Source: Bacteroidales bacterium (GTDB taxonomy: Bacteria; Bacteroidota; Bacteroidia; Bacteroidales; UBA10428). From it: a stretch of DNA of 64,000 bases. The notes below the pieces were generated by a model. That model did no database searches. It was not told the DNA's origin and saw only the letters and a program-made list of their open reading frames with translations. This document shows, in pieces, positions 29,595-36,867 of this stretch. The stretch's first letter is position 1. Every line of letters begins with the position of its first letter. Location of the stretch: the NCBI GenBank assembly GCA_016934395.1, contig JAFGSZ010000061.1:1-64000 (forward strand). Direction: 5' to 3'. A program made the position numbers and the translations under genes.

Positions 29595-29624
29595 TAGCGC
29601 ATGGATACGCGAGAATGTAATATT

Positions 29625-31631
29625 ATGGTAAAAAGTTTTTTCTGCAGGTATTTTATATTTTTATTCCTTCTTTTTGTAAGTTTTTTACACGTATTTCCCC
29701 AGGCACATCCCGTTGAAATAAAACGTTCCGAAGAAAAAGTATTGATTGACGGGGAATTGTATTATATCCATACGGTACAGCCCGGACAAACTACCTATTC
29801 AATTAGCCGTGCTTATGGGGTTACCGAGCAGGATATTGCTGCTGCCAACCCGAATGTATTACTTGAAAAAATTAATGTTGGTCAGGCTCTCCGCATACCG
29901 GTTCGATCAAAAGCCCCGGAGCTCAGTGAAAATTATTTTGATCTGAGTAAAAGAGACTTTATATATCACAAAGTAAAACAGGGTCAGACTGTATTTTTCT
30001 TATCGAAAAAATACAATGTTACGCAGGAAATAATATATGAATATAATCCGGAGGCTCAATTCGGGCTGCAAATCGATCAGGTGATTAAAATCCCTAAAAA
30101 AAATGTGCTGCTCAAAAAATACAAAAACCAGTTTGATGAAAATCCGCAATATATTTATTACGAAATTAAGGCTAAAGATACCTTATATTCCCTTGCAAAA
30201 ATATATGGAATAACCGTTGCAGATATTATTAATTTTAATGAAGAATTAAGGTGGGGACCTAAAGTGGGACAGTTAATACGGATTCCCAAGCCCTCATATT
30301 TGCTTGAAATCGCAGAAATCGACACGATTACTACAGATTCAATTAAAATTAAAATGCTGAGTGTTTTGCAATGTGATTCACTTACCGAAGAAAACAAACA
30401 CAAAGTATTTAAAGTAGCGCTTATGCTGCCATTTTACAGCGATTATAATGAAGTTTTACCTGAAACCAGGTTAAATTCAGATCAGAAAACTACCGAAAAC
30501 ACGGAAGTACAGCCGGTTCTGGAGCAAAACATTAACAGAGGCAGAAATTATATTGAATTTTATGAAGGAATGTTGCTTGCCATTGATTCGCTCAAGAAAG
30601 AAGGAATGAATGTAATGCTTTATGTTTATGATACCCGTCGAGATACGCTGCAAATGAAAAAAATACTGGAGAAACTTGAAATCATTCAGCCCGATCTATT
30701 AGTTGGCCCGGTGTACCATCTTAATTTAAAATTGGCAGCAAAATTTGCACTTGAACATAGAATAAACCTGATTTCACCATTATCAGGCTACGAAATTATT
30801 TTAAAAAACAATCCTTATGTTTATAAAATACTGCCATCAATGGAATCGGATTTATTTTACTATGCTGAATTTTTATCGGATTACCATGATAAAAACATCA
30901 TTCTGGTGCATAATGAAGATAGTTCGGGCATGAAAGAAATAGACAAGTTAAAACAATTCTTATTTTTTCATCTTACATCAAATTCCACTTTTGACAGTAG
31001 CGTTTTTAAGGAAGTTCGGTTTAACGATACTTTAACCGGAAATTTACGCCTTGCACTCATTCAGGAGAAAGAAAACCTGGTAATTATAGCTTCAACAAAT
31101 GAAGCTTATGTTAGCGATGTGCTAACTGTATTAAACAACGATTTAAAATATTACAATATTACGGTAACCGGTTTCCCGGCCTGGCAACGGTTTAAAAAGC
31201 TTCAACTTGAGTATTTTCACAACCTTGAATTAAAACTGTATACTCCGTTTTATGTGGATTATACAAATTCATTTACCCGGGCGGTTATTAATAAATTCAG
31301 AAGCTATTATTTTTACGAACCTACCAGGCTAAGCACCAAAGGTTTTTATTACGGATTACTGGGATTTGATGTGTCTTACTATTTTCTGAATGCACTAAGG
31401 CATTATGGAAACCAGTTTCAAAACTGTATATCTTACCAGAATAACGCACTTACATTAGGTTTGTATCAATTTTACCGTGATAATGAATCGGATGGTTTTA
31501 CCAATTCGTCGATAAATATTATTTCCTATTCCAAAGATTTTGGAATTGAAAAATACCCTTTTCATTTTAAGGCTGATCCGAGGAACATTTCAATATCTTC
31601 AGATAAAACCAACCAATCAATAGATTTCTAG
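29625..31631 (+). CDS. Triple-LysM protein with type 1 periplasmic-binding-like domain
   Basis: This is a secreted protein of about 668 residues from the ATG at 29625, which opens directly into the signal peptide; an ATG at 29601 is possible. Three LysM repeats (about 45-92, 106-154 and 170-218 in this numbering) carry the usual Gly-Gln-Thr/Lys-Asp-Thr starts and Ile-Pro ends and should bind peptidoglycan glycans. The remaining ~400 residues resemble a type 1 periplasmic binding fold of the amino-acid receptor/LpoA type (Ala-Leu-Met-Leu-Pro-Phe-Tyr, then Leu-Leu-Val-Gly-Pro-Val-Tyr). The combination is frequent in Bacteroidota and suggests a cell-wall synthesis or sensing cofactor. Its stop overlaps the stop of the converging receiver gene. 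Confidence 0.82.
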   Translation: MVKSFFCRYFIFLFLLFVSFLHVFPQAHPVEIKRSEEKVLIDGELYYIHTVQPGQTTYSISRAYGVTEQDIAAANPNVLLEKINVGQALRIPVRSKAPELSENYFDLSKRDFIYHKVKQGQTVFFLSKKYNVTQEIIYEYNPEAQFGLQIDQVIKIPKKNVLLKKYKNQFDENPQYIYYEIKAKDTLYSLAKIYGITVADIINFNEELRWGPKVGQLIRIPKPSYLLEIAEIDTITTDSIKIKMLSVLQCDSLTEENKHKVFKVALMLPFYSDYNEVLPETRLNSDQKTTENTEVQPVLEQNINRGRNYIEFYEGMLLAIDSLKKEGMNVMLYVYDTRRDTLQMKKILEKLEIIQPDLLVGPVYHLNLKLAAKFALEHRINLISPLSGYEIILKNNPYVYKILPSMESDLFYYAEFLSDYHDKNIILVHNEDSSGMKEIDKLKQFLFFHLTSNSTFDSSVFKEVRFNDTLTGNLRLALIQEKENLVIIASTNEAYVSDVLTVLNNDLKYYNITVTGFPAWQRFKKLQLEYFHNLELKLYTPFYVDYTNSFTRAVINKFRSYYFYEPTRLSTKGFYYGLLGFDVSYYFLNALRHYGNQFQNCISYQNNALTLGLYQFYRDNESDGFTNSSINIISYSKDFGIEKYPFHFKADPRNISISSDKTNQSIDF

Positions 31632-32113
31632 GAAAACTTGGTGTAATACACAATCAGGGACAACATGCTGATGAAAATAAATCCAAGAGAATAGAGCAGG
31701 CTATGCTCAACTTTCACCGATTTATCAAGTTCGCGTTTTGAGGTAATTAACTGATCAATTTTTTGAGCCAGCCTTCCGATGGCATATTTGGTTTTGGCAA
31801 TATAATCTACAGCTCCTGATTTTAAAATACTGGCAACAACATCTGTGTCGCTCTGGGAAGATAAAAAAATGAAATCGGTATGAGGCCGGTTGATCTTCAT
31901 TTTTTTTAATAACTCCAAACCGTTGATATCATCAAGGTTATATTCCTGTATAACAATATCGGGCGCCTGGTACAGATTCTCCAGGCATTGCCGGCCTGTT
32001 GCATATTCCTCAATATTATTATAATCGATGGCCATCAGTGAATTCATTACCAGTCTCCGGTAATTTTTATTGCCATCAACAATAAATATTAATGGGTATT
32101 TTGATTGCTTCAT
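31628..32113 (-). CDS. Degenerate receiver-domain protein with C-terminal membrane helix
   Basis: This is a 161-residue protein; the ATG at 32113 is chosen over a TTG 30 bases earlier. Residues 6-125 form a CheY-like receiver: Phe-Ile-Val-Asp13-Gly where two acidic residues are usual, Ser85-Ser86 at the switch Ser/Thr, and Lys107 in Ile-Ala-Lys. The phosphoacceptor position is Glu57 (Ile-Gln-Glu-Tyr-Asn-Leu) in place of Asp. A single hydrophobic helix at about 138-157 ends the protein, so it should be tail-anchored in the inner membrane. It is probably not phosphorylated in the normal way and may be locked in one state. No histidine kinase is nearby. Confidence 0.8.
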   Translation of the reverse strand: MKQSKYPLIFIVDGNKNYRRLVMNSLMAIDYNNIEEYATGRQCLENLYQAPDIVIQEYNLDDINGLELLKKMKINRPHTDFIFLSSQSDTDVVASILKSGAVDYIAKTKYAIGRLAQKIDQLITSKRELDKSVKVEHSLLYSLGFIFISMLSLIVYYTKFS

Positions 32114-32300
32114 AGGGATAGGGTCAATGAAAAATCTTATCAAATGTATCGATTTAGACCCAAATAAAAGGTCTGAAAACCTCCGTTTTTGACAAATCTT
32201 TAAAAAGCGAATGTTAATGTCAGTATTTTAATTATGATTGTTTTTATGAATCCCCGGTATCTATTTTTGATTTGAATACAACGAATAGCTACAAAAAATT

Positions 32301-33053
32301 TTAGAGTTTTATTAGTTGTGCGGCATTTTTGTCCATGTACCAGTCGAATTTCCCGTGAACAGGCCGGATGTGATAAGCAGGAAACAAGCGTGCTTCAGGT
32401 GTTGCAAAATAAATCGATGCTGCTTTTTCTTTTTTTGTTTCGCCGGTTATTAAATAAGTTAAACGTTTGGCGTGGATTAATGAATTCCCGGTAAGTGTAA
32501 TTCTTTTTTGTTTTGTTTCAGGATGAATTGCAACAGCGCATAATTCAGCCGCATAAAGTAAATTAAGTTGGTCGGGGAAAATAGACGCAGTATGGCCGTC
32601 AGTTCCCAATCCTAAAAATACCCAGTCGAACACAGGATATCCGTTTTGTAAAAAAATATGGGTTTTCATTTCGTCCGCATATCGTTTTACTTCATTATCA
32701 GGATCAGCCTCTCCCAAGATTCTATGAATATTGTTTTCAGGAAGCCGTATATTTCGGAAAAGTGATTTTTTTGCCATTCCAAAATTACTTTCCGCGTGTT
32801 CCGGTGGAACACATCGTTCATCACCCCAATAAAAATGAATTCCATCCCAATGTATTTGATCCTGGCTATATTGATTATAAGTAGCCAGTCGACGAAATAG
32901 CAACTCCGGTGTAGATCCACCCGAAAGTGCAACGGATACTGCCTTTTGTTTTTTTAATAATGCACCGGTATAGTGTTGAAAATCAAGAGCCAGCATTTCT
33001 GCTAATTGTGAGGGGTTGGAATATATTTTTAACTCAGGTTTCATCTCATCCAT
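32301..33053 (-). CDS. pgl: 6-phosphogluconolactonase
   Basis: This is a 250-residue cytosolic lactonase of the NagB/glucosamine-6-phosphate isomerase fold. It hydrolyses 6-phosphogluconolactone, the second step of the oxidative pentose phosphate pathway. It has Ala-Leu-Ser-Gly-Gly-Ser-Thr-Pro-Glu, Tyr-Trp-Gly-Asp-Glu-Arg-Cys-Val-Pro, Glu-Ser-Asn-Phe-Gly and Leu-Gly-Leu-Gly-Thr-Asp-Gly-His-Thr-Ala-Ser in order. The start at 33053 overlaps the zwf stop as TAATG, implying translational coupling; a TTG 12 bases upstream is less likely. A 6-phosphogluconate dehydrogenase (gnd) gene is not in the window. Confidence 0.93.
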   Translation of the reverse strand: MDEMKPELKIYSNPSQLAEMLALDFQHYTGALLKKQKAVSVALSGGSTPELLFRRLATYNQYSQDQIHWDGIHFYWGDERCVPPEHAESNFGMAKKSLFRNIRLPENNIHRILGEADPDNEVKRYADEMKTHIFLQNGYPVFDWVFLGLGTDGHTASIFPDQLNLLYAAELCAVAIHPETKQKRITLTGNSLIHAKRLTYLITGETKKEKAASIYFATPEARLFPAYHIRPVHGKFDWYMDKNAAQLIKL

Positions 33054-34582
33054 TATAATTCGCAATAATTACCATCACTCGTTAAATTTTTACAGGGATA
33101 TCGCCAGGTAAGGTTATCCCCTTCAATCAGGTCATCAGCAATTTTTGGTCCCCAGGTGCCGGCAGGGTAGCCATAAACCTGGATTTCAGGATTTTCTTTC
33201 CACAATTTTAATATCGGGTCTACAAATTTCCATGCTTCTTCCACGGCATCCCCGCGGGCATATAGGGTTGAATCACCCAGCATACAATCGAGCAATAATC
33301 GTTGATAAGCTTCCGGAACATGTACATCAGATAAATCGGAATAATGAAAATCCATACTCACATCCTGCACATGATAGCCCGCACCGGGAACCTTCATACC
33401 GAATTTAAGCAAAATGCCTTCATCGGGCTGGATTCGGATAATCAACTGATTATCTGTGTTAAAGTTTTCTTCGTTAAGATTAAAGAGCTTGTGAGGAGTA
33501 GGCTTAAAGTGAATAACAATTTCCGTTACCCTGGTGGGTAGTCGTTTTCCCGTACGAATATAAAAAGGGACTCCCCCCCATCGCCAGTTATCAATATAAA
33601 GCTTCAATGCTAAATAGGTTTCAGTGCGTGAATTTTGATTTACACCCGGTTCATCACGATAGGCTTTAAGATGCTCACCTCTTACATTGGAAGCAACATA
33701 TTGTCCCCGGATTACATAATCCTCAAGATTATTTGAATTGTATGACCGTAATGACTGAAACACTTTGAGCGTTTCGTTTCTTATGGCTGTTGAATTGATT
33801 TCAGTAGCCGGTTCCATAGCCACAAGGGCCACCAGGTGCAGCAAATGGTTCTGCACCATATCACGTAATGCCCCGGAACCATCATAATATCCACCCCTGC
33901 TTTCAACACCAATACTTTCAGCCGATGTTATTTCAACATGGTGAATATAATTCCTGTTCCACAAGGGTTCAAAAATTCCATTTGAAAAACGCGTAACCAT
34001 TACGTTCTGAACAGTTTCTTTACCCAGGTAATGATCGATACGGTAAAGCTGATTTTCTGAGAAATACGATAACAGGTTTATATTTAATTCACGAGCTGAG
34101 GCCAGGTCGTATCCAAAAGGTTTTTCAACAATAAGCCGTTTCCACGATCCGTTTTCTTCAGAACTTAAACCAAAAAAATGAAGGCTTTGTGCTATACTTT
34201 CATATAAACTTGGAGGTGTGGCAAGGTAAAAAATGTAGTTTGGATTTTTATCCGGATCCTTATGTAATTCCTGTAACTTAGTTTTTAGTTTTTTATATTC
34301 TTCCTTTTTTGAGGTTTCAATAGATATATAAAACAGCTTATCACAAAAATTTTGTAGCAGCTTATCCTCATCCACTTTTTTTTCTTCACATATCGACCCG
34401 GTCATTTTCTGCCTGAACGTACTATCATCCAGTTGTGTTCGGCCAACGCCGAGAATAGCATAATTTTCAGGCAATAAATTTTGCCGGTGCAGCTCATACA
34501 AAGCCGGAATAAGTTTTCGTTTTGTAAGATCGCCTGAGGCGCCAAATATTACCAGGATGTGATTTTCAGGAACTTTTATCAT
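33053..34582 (-). CDS. zwf: Glucose-6-phosphate 1-dehydrogenase
   Basis: This is a 509-residue dehydrogenase that oxidises glucose-6-phosphate with NADP+ and makes the lactone used by Pgl. The N-terminal nucleotide-binding Gly-Ala-Ser-Gly-Asp-Leu-Thr-Lys-Arg-Lys (14-23) and the active-site Arg-Ile-Asp-His-Tyr-Leu-Gly-Lys block (about residue 181-188) are intact. The length is usual for the family. It is the first gene of the zwf-pgl pair. The upstream SLC12-like gene lies in the same direction 65 bases away, so a longer transcript is possible. Confidence 0.95.
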   Translation of the reverse strand: MIKVPENHILVIFGASGDLTKRKLIPALYELHRQNLLPENYAILGVGRTQLDDSTFRQKMTGSICEEKKVDEDKLLQNFCDKLFYISIETSKKEEYKKLKTKLQELHKDPDKNPNYIFYLATPPSLYESIAQSLHFFGLSSEENGSWKRLIVEKPFGYDLASARELNINLLSYFSENQLYRIDHYLGKETVQNVMVTRFSNGIFEPLWNRNYIHHVEITSAESIGVESRGGYYDGSGALRDMVQNHLLHLVALVAMEPATEINSTAIRNETLKVFQSLRSYNSNNLEDYVIRGQYVASNVRGEHLKAYRDEPGVNQNSRTETYLALKLYIDNWRWGGVPFYIRTGKRLPTRVTEIVIHFKPTPHKLFNLNEENFNTDNQLIIRIQPDEGILLKFGMKVPGAGYHVQDVSMDFHYSDLSDVHVPEAYQRLLLDCMLGDSTLYARGDAVEEAWKFVDPILKLWKENPEIQVYGYPAGTWGPKIADDLIEGDNLTWRYPCKNLTSDGNYCEL

Positions 34583-34647: not shown

Positions 34648-36867
34648 TTATTTAATTTCTTTAATATCTCTTGCATTTACAAACAGCACATCGCCTAATT
34701 CGTGATACCCCAGAAACAATTCCCTGTTATATTTAATCTGGTCTTCATGAAATCCTATTACCGTTAGTCCGGCGCCTTCCGAACGACCGGCAACAAGCGA
34801 TTTGGAATTTACATTTTCATCCTGCTTAATTATTTCTATATTTTTTGAAGATATAGGCAAACGGCCCACTTGTATTAACTTTAATAAATCATTTCGTGTT
34901 TCATCAAATTCAGATTCCTTGCAAATACTGAATATTTTTATTTTGCCCTTTTTCCAGTCTGGATGCCCTAAGATTATATAACTCAGCAAAATCATAAGAT
35001 TTGCATTCTCAAAATCTATAGATTTTATCCACACATGGATACCCTGTTTAAAATTTATACTCTTTTTTGAAGCGCCCAGCACGCATATATCCATATCAGC
35101 TGCACGCGCTAGTGCTATATTATCTGTAATCTGTTTGAGATTATGCGGATTATTTTTATCAAACTCAAAGAGCATCATATTATTTTCCAGTCCGGAAATG
35201 CTTGGAAGTTGAATTACCTGTGCCACGGCTGAAGTATACGAAGGAGATATCAGGGTATCCAGATAAATCTTGCTGTTTTCTTCCGATAATTCAATTAATT
35301 TATTCAGAACTTCTTTGGCATGGGCGCTCGATGCAGTAGAAAAATAGTCTTCGATAAGATGAATATATGTGCCGAATCCGTACCTGAAAGATATCCAGTT
35401 TAATAATTTAATGGCTTTATTGCGTTCGAAAGAAGCGCTGGAAATACATATTACAGCCGGCCGCCACTTTTTTTCCTCAGAAGACTTTTTGGTTTTCTGG
35501 TTAAAAACCTGAATGTTCCTGCTTAGTTGAAATATTGCCGATTGAAATATAGCCTGCATTCCGCCACGGTCTTTATGCGAATAGCTTACAAAGGTATATA
35601 TTAATGATATTACAATGATTGAGGCAAGAGCATAGGTAGTATTCATTTTAAACATTAACCAAAAACACAATACAAATCCAACCAGTGAAACATACCATTT
35701 CGAGCGAAAAGCAGGACGATAAGAAGGATCTGCACCAAAATGGTACAAGAAAGAAATAAGGCAAAGAGATCCGTAGGTTACCATAAAAAACATGGAAATG
35801 ATTTGCGCCACGGCATTCACATCGCCCAAAGCAACAAATACAAGCGCAATAATACAGGTAACCACTGTTGCATTGAATGGCTCATGGGTTTCACCTTTAC
35901 CTTTTGCCAGAACATGGTTAATACCCGGTAAAGGAATGGACCGGTCAATCCCCAATGCCTGAAGCGTGCGCGGCGCCACCATTATCGATCCAATTGCCGA
36001 AGAAATAGTAGAAGCTGCCAATCCCAGTGGAATGATAACGGGGCCGAAAACAGCAATTTTACTCATAATGAGCTGGTTGTTCACCAGTTCATCAGGATGT
36101 GCAGAAACTGCCAGTTTCAGGCTGATAAATACATACATAATCATTCCTGTAATGGTAGCTATAGTTGTTCCCAAAGGAATCGATTTACCCGGATTTTTCA
36201 GATCGCCCGATAAACCTACTCCTGCAGTCATTCCTGTAAAAGCAGGAAAACATATTGCAAATACGATAAAAAAGTTTTTAAAATTCTCACTTTTTATTGT
36301 AAAGAGGTTTACCGTTTCTGTTTGTGAATAATCAGTTTTTCCCAGAAAAAAAAGTAACAATGCCAGAAAAAGTATCGCCACTACAAAATATAAAGCTTTA
36401 ACACCCATATTCGCTCCTCTTTTCAGAATAAGGTATGACAATAAAAGCATTGAAGGTATACTTATGATCTGCCGGGGCAATAAAACACCCCATTTTTCAT
36501 AAACAAAATTAAAAATCGGCTCAAATGCTTCAGTAAAGGCAATAACATAAAACGCCACACTAATTGCCTGGGAGAAAAATAACGCTATTCCAATGGTTGC
36601 TCCGATATTTAAACCGAATGACCGCGAAATTATAAAATACTCCCCTCCTCCTTCCACACGTTGATTTGTTGCTATTTCTGAAATTGACAAAGCAGTAGGA
36701 ATAGTTACCATATGTCCTAAAAAGACAATCAGTAACACGCCAACAAATCCGAGGGTTCCAACTGCATATCCAAATCTCAGAAATAATATGGCACCCAGTA
36801 TGGTTGATATAGCTGTAAAAAAAACCGGTGCGGTCCCAAATGTTTTTTTATGAGTCTGATTTTCCAT
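34648..36867 (-). CDS. SLC12-like cation-chloride/amino acid permease
   Basis: This is a 739-residue inner-membrane transporter of the APC superfamily. About 12 helices lie between residues 13 and 430, starting with the family's Ala-Ile-Ser-Thr-Ile-Leu-Gly-Ala-Ile-Leu-Phe-Leu-Arg-Phe-Gly unwound-helix region. A ~300-residue cytoplasmic C-terminal domain follows, with two alpha/beta (USP-like) units beginning near Lys-Trp-Arg-Pro-Ala-Val-Ile-Cys. The long C-terminal domain separates it from plain amino-acid permeases and matches bacterial relatives of the Na-K-Cl cotransporters. The substrate is uncertain: chloride with cation, or an amino acid. Confidence 0.82.
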   Translation of the reverse strand: MENQTHKKTFGTAPVFFTAISTILGAILFLRFGYAVGTLGFVGVLLIVFLGHMVTIPTALSISEIATNQRVEGGGEYFIISRSFGLNIGATIGIALFFSQAISVAFYVIAFTEAFEPIFNFVYEKWGVLLPRQIISIPSMLLLSYLILKRGANMGVKALYFVVAILFLALLLFFLGKTDYSQTETVNLFTIKSENFKNFFIVFAICFPAFTGMTAGVGLSGDLKNPGKSIPLGTTIATITGMIMYVFISLKLAVSAHPDELVNNQLIMSKIAVFGPVIIPLGLAASTISSAIGSIMVAPRTLQALGIDRSIPLPGINHVLAKGKGETHEPFNATVVTCIIALVFVALGDVNAVAQIISMFFMVTYGSLCLISFLYHFGADPSYRPAFRSKWYVSLVGFVLCFWLMFKMNTTYALASIIVISLIYTFVSYSHKDRGGMQAIFQSAIFQLSRNIQVFNQKTKKSSEEKKWRPAVICISSASFERNKAIKLLNWISFRYGFGTYIHLIEDYFSTASSAHAKEVLNKLIELSEENSKIYLDTLISPSYTSAVAQVIQLPSISGLENNMMLFEFDKNNPHNLKQITDNIALARAADMDICVLGASKKSINFKQGIHVWIKSIDFENANLMILLSYIILGHPDWKKGKIKIFSICKESEFDETRNDLLKLIQVGRLPISSKNIEIIKQDENVNSKSLVAGRSEGAGLTVIGFHEDQIKYNRELFLGYHELGDVLFVNARDIKEIK

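Follow-up and report, generated by a model that had tools for sequence, protein, structure and literature searches.

A putative tail-anchored pseudo-receiver with Glu at the phosphosite, and its lineage in a family of Bacteroidales

The window, a stretch of 64,000 nucleotides of contig JAFGSZ010000061.1 (assembly GCA_016934395.1) from a Bacteroidales bacterium of the family UBA10428, contains a gene for a receiver protein of 161 residues, which the initial annotation had described as tethered to the membrane by a C-terminal helix (Table 1). A longer alternative reading frame exists, its mechanical start being a TTG at 32143, 10 codons upstream of the ATG. The only Pfam family found above its cut-off in the protein is Response_reg (PF00072), which matches residues 9-117 with 62 bits against a gathering score of 30.2 (7.4e-17); this score and the predicted (beta-alpha)5 fold make it a receiver. 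In NCBIfam, the best 25 of 30 matches all fall far under their cut-offs, and among the matches listed no model is named for a tailed receiver. The host draft genome (4.5 Mb, 155 contigs) has 89-90 receiver matches.

Table 1. Features of the receiver gene and its neighbours, in coordinates of the window
Feature	Positions	Strand	Basis or remark
Whole gene, 161-aa tail-anchored pseudo-receiver (predicted)	31628..32113	-	Stop included; ATG at 32113
Receiver domain, about residues 9-117	31763..32089	-	PF00072; AlphaFold (beta-alpha)5 fold
D13, retained first acid of the metal site, and G14, in place of the second acid	32072..32077	-	Alignments
Glu57 codon, phosphoacceptor column	31943..31945	-	Sequence and alignments
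Ser85, conserved Thr/Ser position	31859..31861	-	Alignment
Lys107, conserved Lys	31793..31795	-	Lys present in 82/82 tailed receivers
Continuous helix, alpha5 into tail, residues 111-160	31634..31783	-	AlphaFold/DSSP
Predicted transmembrane helix, residues 138-157	31643..31702	-	Hydropathy and moment; tail in 12/14 orthologs
Convergent LysM-domain protein gene	29601..31631	+	Stop overlaps receiver stop by 4 bases
pgl and zwf (G6PD), between transporter and receiver	32301..34582	-	Pfam
SLC12-like/amino-acid-permease transporter, recurrent 5'-side neighbour	34648..36867	-	AA_permease above, SLC12 domain below cut-off (Pfam)

The pocket of this receiver is degenerate. As first proposed, Glu57 stands in the phosphoacceptor position, a column occupied by Asp in the canonical relatives, and a nearby Asp as the true acceptor could be ruled out, because the segment PDIVIQEYNL (51-60) aligns without gaps in a 13-row alignment. 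The single N-terminal acidic residue and the conserved Lys107 were likewise confirmed, D13 being kept with G14 in place of the second acid; Tyr104 was assigned by alignment, alongside S85 and K107. Of the 90 receiver matches in the genome, 85 could be aligned over every pocket position; three of these have Glu at the phosphosite, and the window protein alone combines Glu with a lost second acid and kept Ser and Lys. In L323_0, from the same genome, Glu is likewise present and the acid pair absent, but the Lys is missing too. With a receiver profile and with G14 and E57 in place of key residues, the window protein fits a pseudo-receiver (PsR) in sequence, and E57 makes it an aspartate-less receiver (ALR) as well, as are 9 of the 14 orthologs of its clade. 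It lacks the acid pair and the acceptor Asp of a phosphorelay single-domain response regulator.

The presence of a hydrophobic C-terminal helix was also upheld. Residues 138-157 include no D, E, K or R, their best 19-residue Kyte-Doolittle mean is 2.0 and their hydrophobic moment is 0.22. Given this moment and the lack of charge, the tail is not amphipathic. A single C-terminal helix at 138-157 of 161, with few residues after it, corresponds by hydropathy to a tail anchor; here and below, tails were called by hydropathy alone. The basic residues that precede the helix agree with a putative cytoplasmic N-terminal domain, and the tail would be inserted in the membrane with the receiver on the cytoplasmic side.

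AlphaFold2, supplied with 73 sequences, predicts a standard receiver (mean pLDDT 96.2) with alpha5 unbroken to residue 160, so that alpha5 and tail form one helix of 50 residues. The best Foldseek matches are structures of CheY, which has the same fold (top 2che, TM-score 0.67 on the query), and NtrC1 (4l4u) is matched over 142 columns. CheY itself is soluble, binds metal and is phosphorylated. By profile, the best solved relatives are of the NtrC/NtrC1 type (1zy2, E 4.4e-27, then 4l4u and 1ny5); their match to the window protein extends across the alpha5 linker as far as profile position 139, and NtrC-like proteins of about 450 residues are among the next-best matches in the same genomes. Unlike the NtrC family, the window protein has no sigma54 AAA+ or DNA-binding domain, and its linker helix leads into a hydrophobic tail. 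We infer that tailed receivers are NtrC-type receivers whose linker helix enters the membrane instead of an AAA+ domain.

Tail-tethered receivers had been presumed rare, a view that did not survive the genome searches, which covered 60 relatives and were extended by profile to the family (23 genomes), the order (393), the class (395) and the phylum (296). We found 82 of them in 62 genomes of the order and class. Eighty regions were fetched from family, order and class hits, giving 81 with the window; the 82, all of them single receivers whose C-terminal helix is hydrophobic, occur in 72 of these 81, the other nine having none, and since the regions were chosen from search hits, 82 is no true frequency. 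Outside the class, two profile matches, in G916 and G955, extend over the tail portion. The alignment of tailed receivers holds 73 of the 82: seven were omitted for long N-termini (L176, L181, the second of L183, L200, L202, L204 and L208), and L218 and L221 were omitted as well.

The 70 tailed receivers outside the window lineage share its architecture, extended alpha5 and sequence family. They differ from it in the pocket: all 70 have both acids and the Lys, and 67 have Asp in the acceptor column, the others having Asn (two) or Gly (one). They also differ in their surroundings. A kinase-like ORF lies no more than three genes away in 40 of the 70, and a member of one Hpt cluster in 17 of the 70 (three of three cluster members tested match Pfam Hpt). 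By the same short motifs and within the same three genes, no kinase-like ORF was seen beside any of the 12 tailed orthologs of the window lineage, nor was a gene of that Hpt cluster; the regions of the two tailless orthologs also showed no kinase-like ORF. However, kinase genes need not adjoin their receivers, so that a missing neighbour says little, and Fisher values for kinase proximity overstate independence, because the orthologs share ancestry.

Several of these other tailed receivers deserve mention on their own account. Two from another family (L170:6730-7224 and L171:6663-7160, both on the minus strand) carry Asn as the phosphosite residue while keeping the two acids of the metal site; they have three neighbouring gene families in common and represent a separate pocket change. 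The receiver at L202:5152-5811 (+) has Gly in the acceptor column with its acids intact, maybe through misalignment. At L137:10737-17522 and L139:2616-8657, proteins of 2261 and 2013 residues with a kinase ATPase motif directly follow the tailed receiver. In L189, L195, L206 and L207, the receiver adjoins members of a Poly_export cluster and of a second cluster, presumably Wzc-like, and genes of kinase-like or NtrC type are found close by (the Pfam matches are those of the L189 copies). Polysaccharide-export loci are thus a candidate setting for the role of canonical tailed receivers.

The window protein belongs to a distinct clade. Of the 23 family genomes searched by profile, 14, spread over five genera, contain an ortholog; none was found in the other nine, some of which are incomplete. 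In a tree of 40 chosen rows, built without columns 14 and 57 and rooted by midpoint only, the 14 orthologs are grouped (95/95) apart from the other 26 rows, several inner forks being weak. The second metal-site position is non-acidic in 13 of the 14, the exception being G007 with Glu. The acceptor column is Glu in nine and Asp in five, with at least four changes on the tree; since the two alternate among orthologs, Glu is tolerated, not required. Judged from these columns, loss of the second metal-site acid is a more consistent trait of the clade than Glu. N15, Y18, F83, S/T108, L115 and Y157 are near-invariant in the clade and more variable outside. In three pairs dN/dS is about 0.20, 0.14 and 0.29, with dS above 1 and near saturation. 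At the level of sequence we regard the clade as confirmed beyond chance, with orthologs in 14 of 23 genomes, mostly conserved neighbours and dN well below dS.

Divergence within the clade is fast. The median pairwise identity of tailed orthologs is 34%, against 74% and 71% for neighbours that we take to be PurC-like and PhoH-like, 67% for the transporter and 63% for zwf; other neighbours also diverge fast (pgl 47%, ankyrin 41%, LysM 36%). The tail is absent in G008 and G015. The G015 ortholog (L132:4452-4838) stops at the expected tail start and hydrophobic sequence follows after stops, by decay or assembly error; the G001 ortholog (L007 / L121) has a stop near its expected start beside a run of A, possibly a sequencing error, the draft consisting of one contig. 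A further useful relative is JABMPI010000122 (L001), although the contig end cuts off its tail region; three more, L002-L004, were set aside as unrelated or ordinary.

The origin of the degenerate pocket can be approached through G409 (L222), a genome of another family of the same order. It carries the same block, with the PurC-like gene, the LysM gene, a convergent tailed receiver and a photolyase-like gene 57% identical to the neighbour of the receiver in G022 (a photolyase by Pfam on the G022 copy). Its receiver has an intact pocket, with Glu-Asp, Asp, Ser and Lys, from which the degenerate pocket is most simply derived. Only its position marks this receiver as a putative ortholog, as the tree does not join it to the clade.

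We consider it reasonably probable that the window protein is a phosphorylation-independent pseudo-receiver, derived from phosphorylatable tailed receivers, whose C-terminal helix tethers it to the inner membrane. The ancestor would have been such a receiver, of the type that recurs in the class. In the lineage the metal site now lacks its second beta1 acid and the acceptor is Glu or Asp, and phosphotransfer has probably ceased to be the switch. According to a review of pseudo-receivers, the second acid of receivers contacts the metal directly (PMC12632262), and its loss, together with the interchange of Asp and Glu, argues for such a change of switch. Retained are the receiver fold, the relay of Ser, Tyr and Lys (S85, Y104, K107) and the clade-specific beta5-alpha5 segment, and the conservation of these residues and of this segment argues that the binding face is still in use. 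The predicted membrane helix is kept in 12 of 14 orthologs, and alpha5 would run directly into the membrane. Pocket loss and a retained binding face together favour a protein-binding module at the membrane, and this is how the protein would most likely act. The window protein would then be incapable of being phosphorylated and would bind constitutively; the orthologs with Asp might still be phosphorylated. The initial suggestion of a constitutive membrane scaffold is compatible with these data. Against the preferred reading, the sequences offer the Glu of G007 at the second acid, the two tailless orthologs, the fast divergence and the nine family genomes, some incomplete, that yielded no ortholog.

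Alternatively, Glu57 may be a true phosphomimetic. The protein would be locked in the active state and would constitutively engage a partner whose binding by canonical tailed receivers requires phosphorylation. Ser85, Y104 and K107 are indeed retained, the nearest solved relatives by sequence are NtrC-type receivers, and Klose, in 1993, is said to have found that Glu at the phosphosite activates NtrC. Glu is also the commonest residue at this site in Asp-less receivers, according to PMC12632262, in which, however, the Glu hypothesis is stated to be disproved in some cases. Moreover, in five of the 14 orthologs the second acid is missing and the acceptor column is Asp, which, as far as sequences tell, weakens the case for Glu as a specific phosphomimetic. 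Mimicry of the active state is possible for the members with Glu and, on this pattern, cannot be the rule of the lineage; overall we find this explanation rather unlikely.

We also considered that the protein could act as a membrane-bound decoy for a kinase or an Hpt protein and thereby dampen another phosphorelay. The proximity of other tailed receivers to Hpt-cluster members (17/70) or kinase-like ORFs (40/70) speaks for it; the count of such genes within three genes is, however, 0/12 in the window lineage, and we judge the decoy improbable.

A further possibility is that the protein is an accessory regulator of the co-directional SLC12-like transporter, acting in the membrane. In 12 of 14 loci the receiver and LysM genes converge (G001 is an exception, and in G015 the contig ends 0.5 kb on). 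The transporter gene lies next to the receiver gene or nearby, in the same direction, in 9 of the 11 loci with enough contig on the 5' side (G000, G004, G005, G007, G008, G010, G015, G017 and G019; not G001 or G022). This includes G015, where the pair sits on a short contig and the transporter is only 48% identical to that of the window. However, transporter orthologs occur without the receiver in five genomes (G002, G003, G014, G018 and G020), so that an obligate partnership is unsupported; G016 has the receiver and no transporter match, and pgl and zwf intervene in some genomes. In 15 regions around transporter orthologs or paralogs away from the receiver, viewed up to 6 kb per side, no tailed receiver was seen and three carry receivers of other build; some of these regions end at contig ends, and one partly masked receiver near the G001 transporter was unreadable. 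As far as these loci show, the two genes are therefore paired at a single syntenic locus, and as the whole block is syntenic, the linkage may be plain shared ancestry. Two paralogs of the window transporter, 64% and 54% identical, lie elsewhere in the same genome. We hold a regulator of this kind to be quite improbable, and retain the transporter gene as a lead that may point to a partner. The LysM gene is weakened as a functional partner, being present in 213 of 393 order genomes (E up to 1e-40) and adjoining the receiver in only three of 30 LysM loci examined (the window, G005 and G409), some of which reach contig ends.

Finally, a functionless, decaying relic of a former phosphorelay receiver would account for the degraded pocket, the fast divergence, the tail missing in 2/14 and the family genomes in which no ortholog was found (9/23, some incomplete), but it is very doubtful in view of dN/dS well under 1 in three pairs, of clade-specific conserved positions, one within the tail, and of persistence in five genera.

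The preferred reading, a phosphorylation-independent module at the membrane, can be placed among known systems. The window protein resembles the pseudo-receivers and aspartate-less receivers described in PMC12632262 and PMC4395418 in its receiver fold, lost metal-site acid and Glu for Asp, and differs from them in that its only extra element is a predicted membrane-spanning tail. The main text of PMC12632262 contains neither 'transmembrane' nor 'anchor', and 'membrane' has a single occurrence, within the title of a reference. Response regulators of archaea that carry a MetOD3 domain are likewise membrane-anchored but have a separate output domain and are reported from methanogens (PMC5847659). 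In the literature on membrane- or tail-anchored response regulators outside subscription journals, the present architecture was not found, which leaves its absence unproven. More speculatively, and as an idea to which we give limited credit, tailed receivers may be an unnamed kind of membrane output, widespread in this class of bacteria, in which alpha5 continues into a transmembrane helix and a phosphorylation-driven change of the alpha4-beta5-alpha5 face is passed directly to a membrane partner; the window lineage would then be a permanently set version, possibly a subunit of the SLC12-like transporter.

A 2025 review describes the on-off switching of bacterial pseudo-receivers as a mystery (Bourret 2025, PMC12632262). 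The present family offers a natural series, from an intact pocket in the same gene neighbourhood (G409) through a lost second acid with Asp to a lost second acid with Glu, whose members mostly carry the same kind of membrane helix, so that exchanging natural orthologs can test the role of Glu. The wider group of tailed receivers, which includes a few in loci for polysaccharide export, suggests DNA-independent signalling to membrane machines. As far as their sequences indicate, the tailed architecture is common in related bacteria, and the branch of the window seems to have abandoned phosphorylation.
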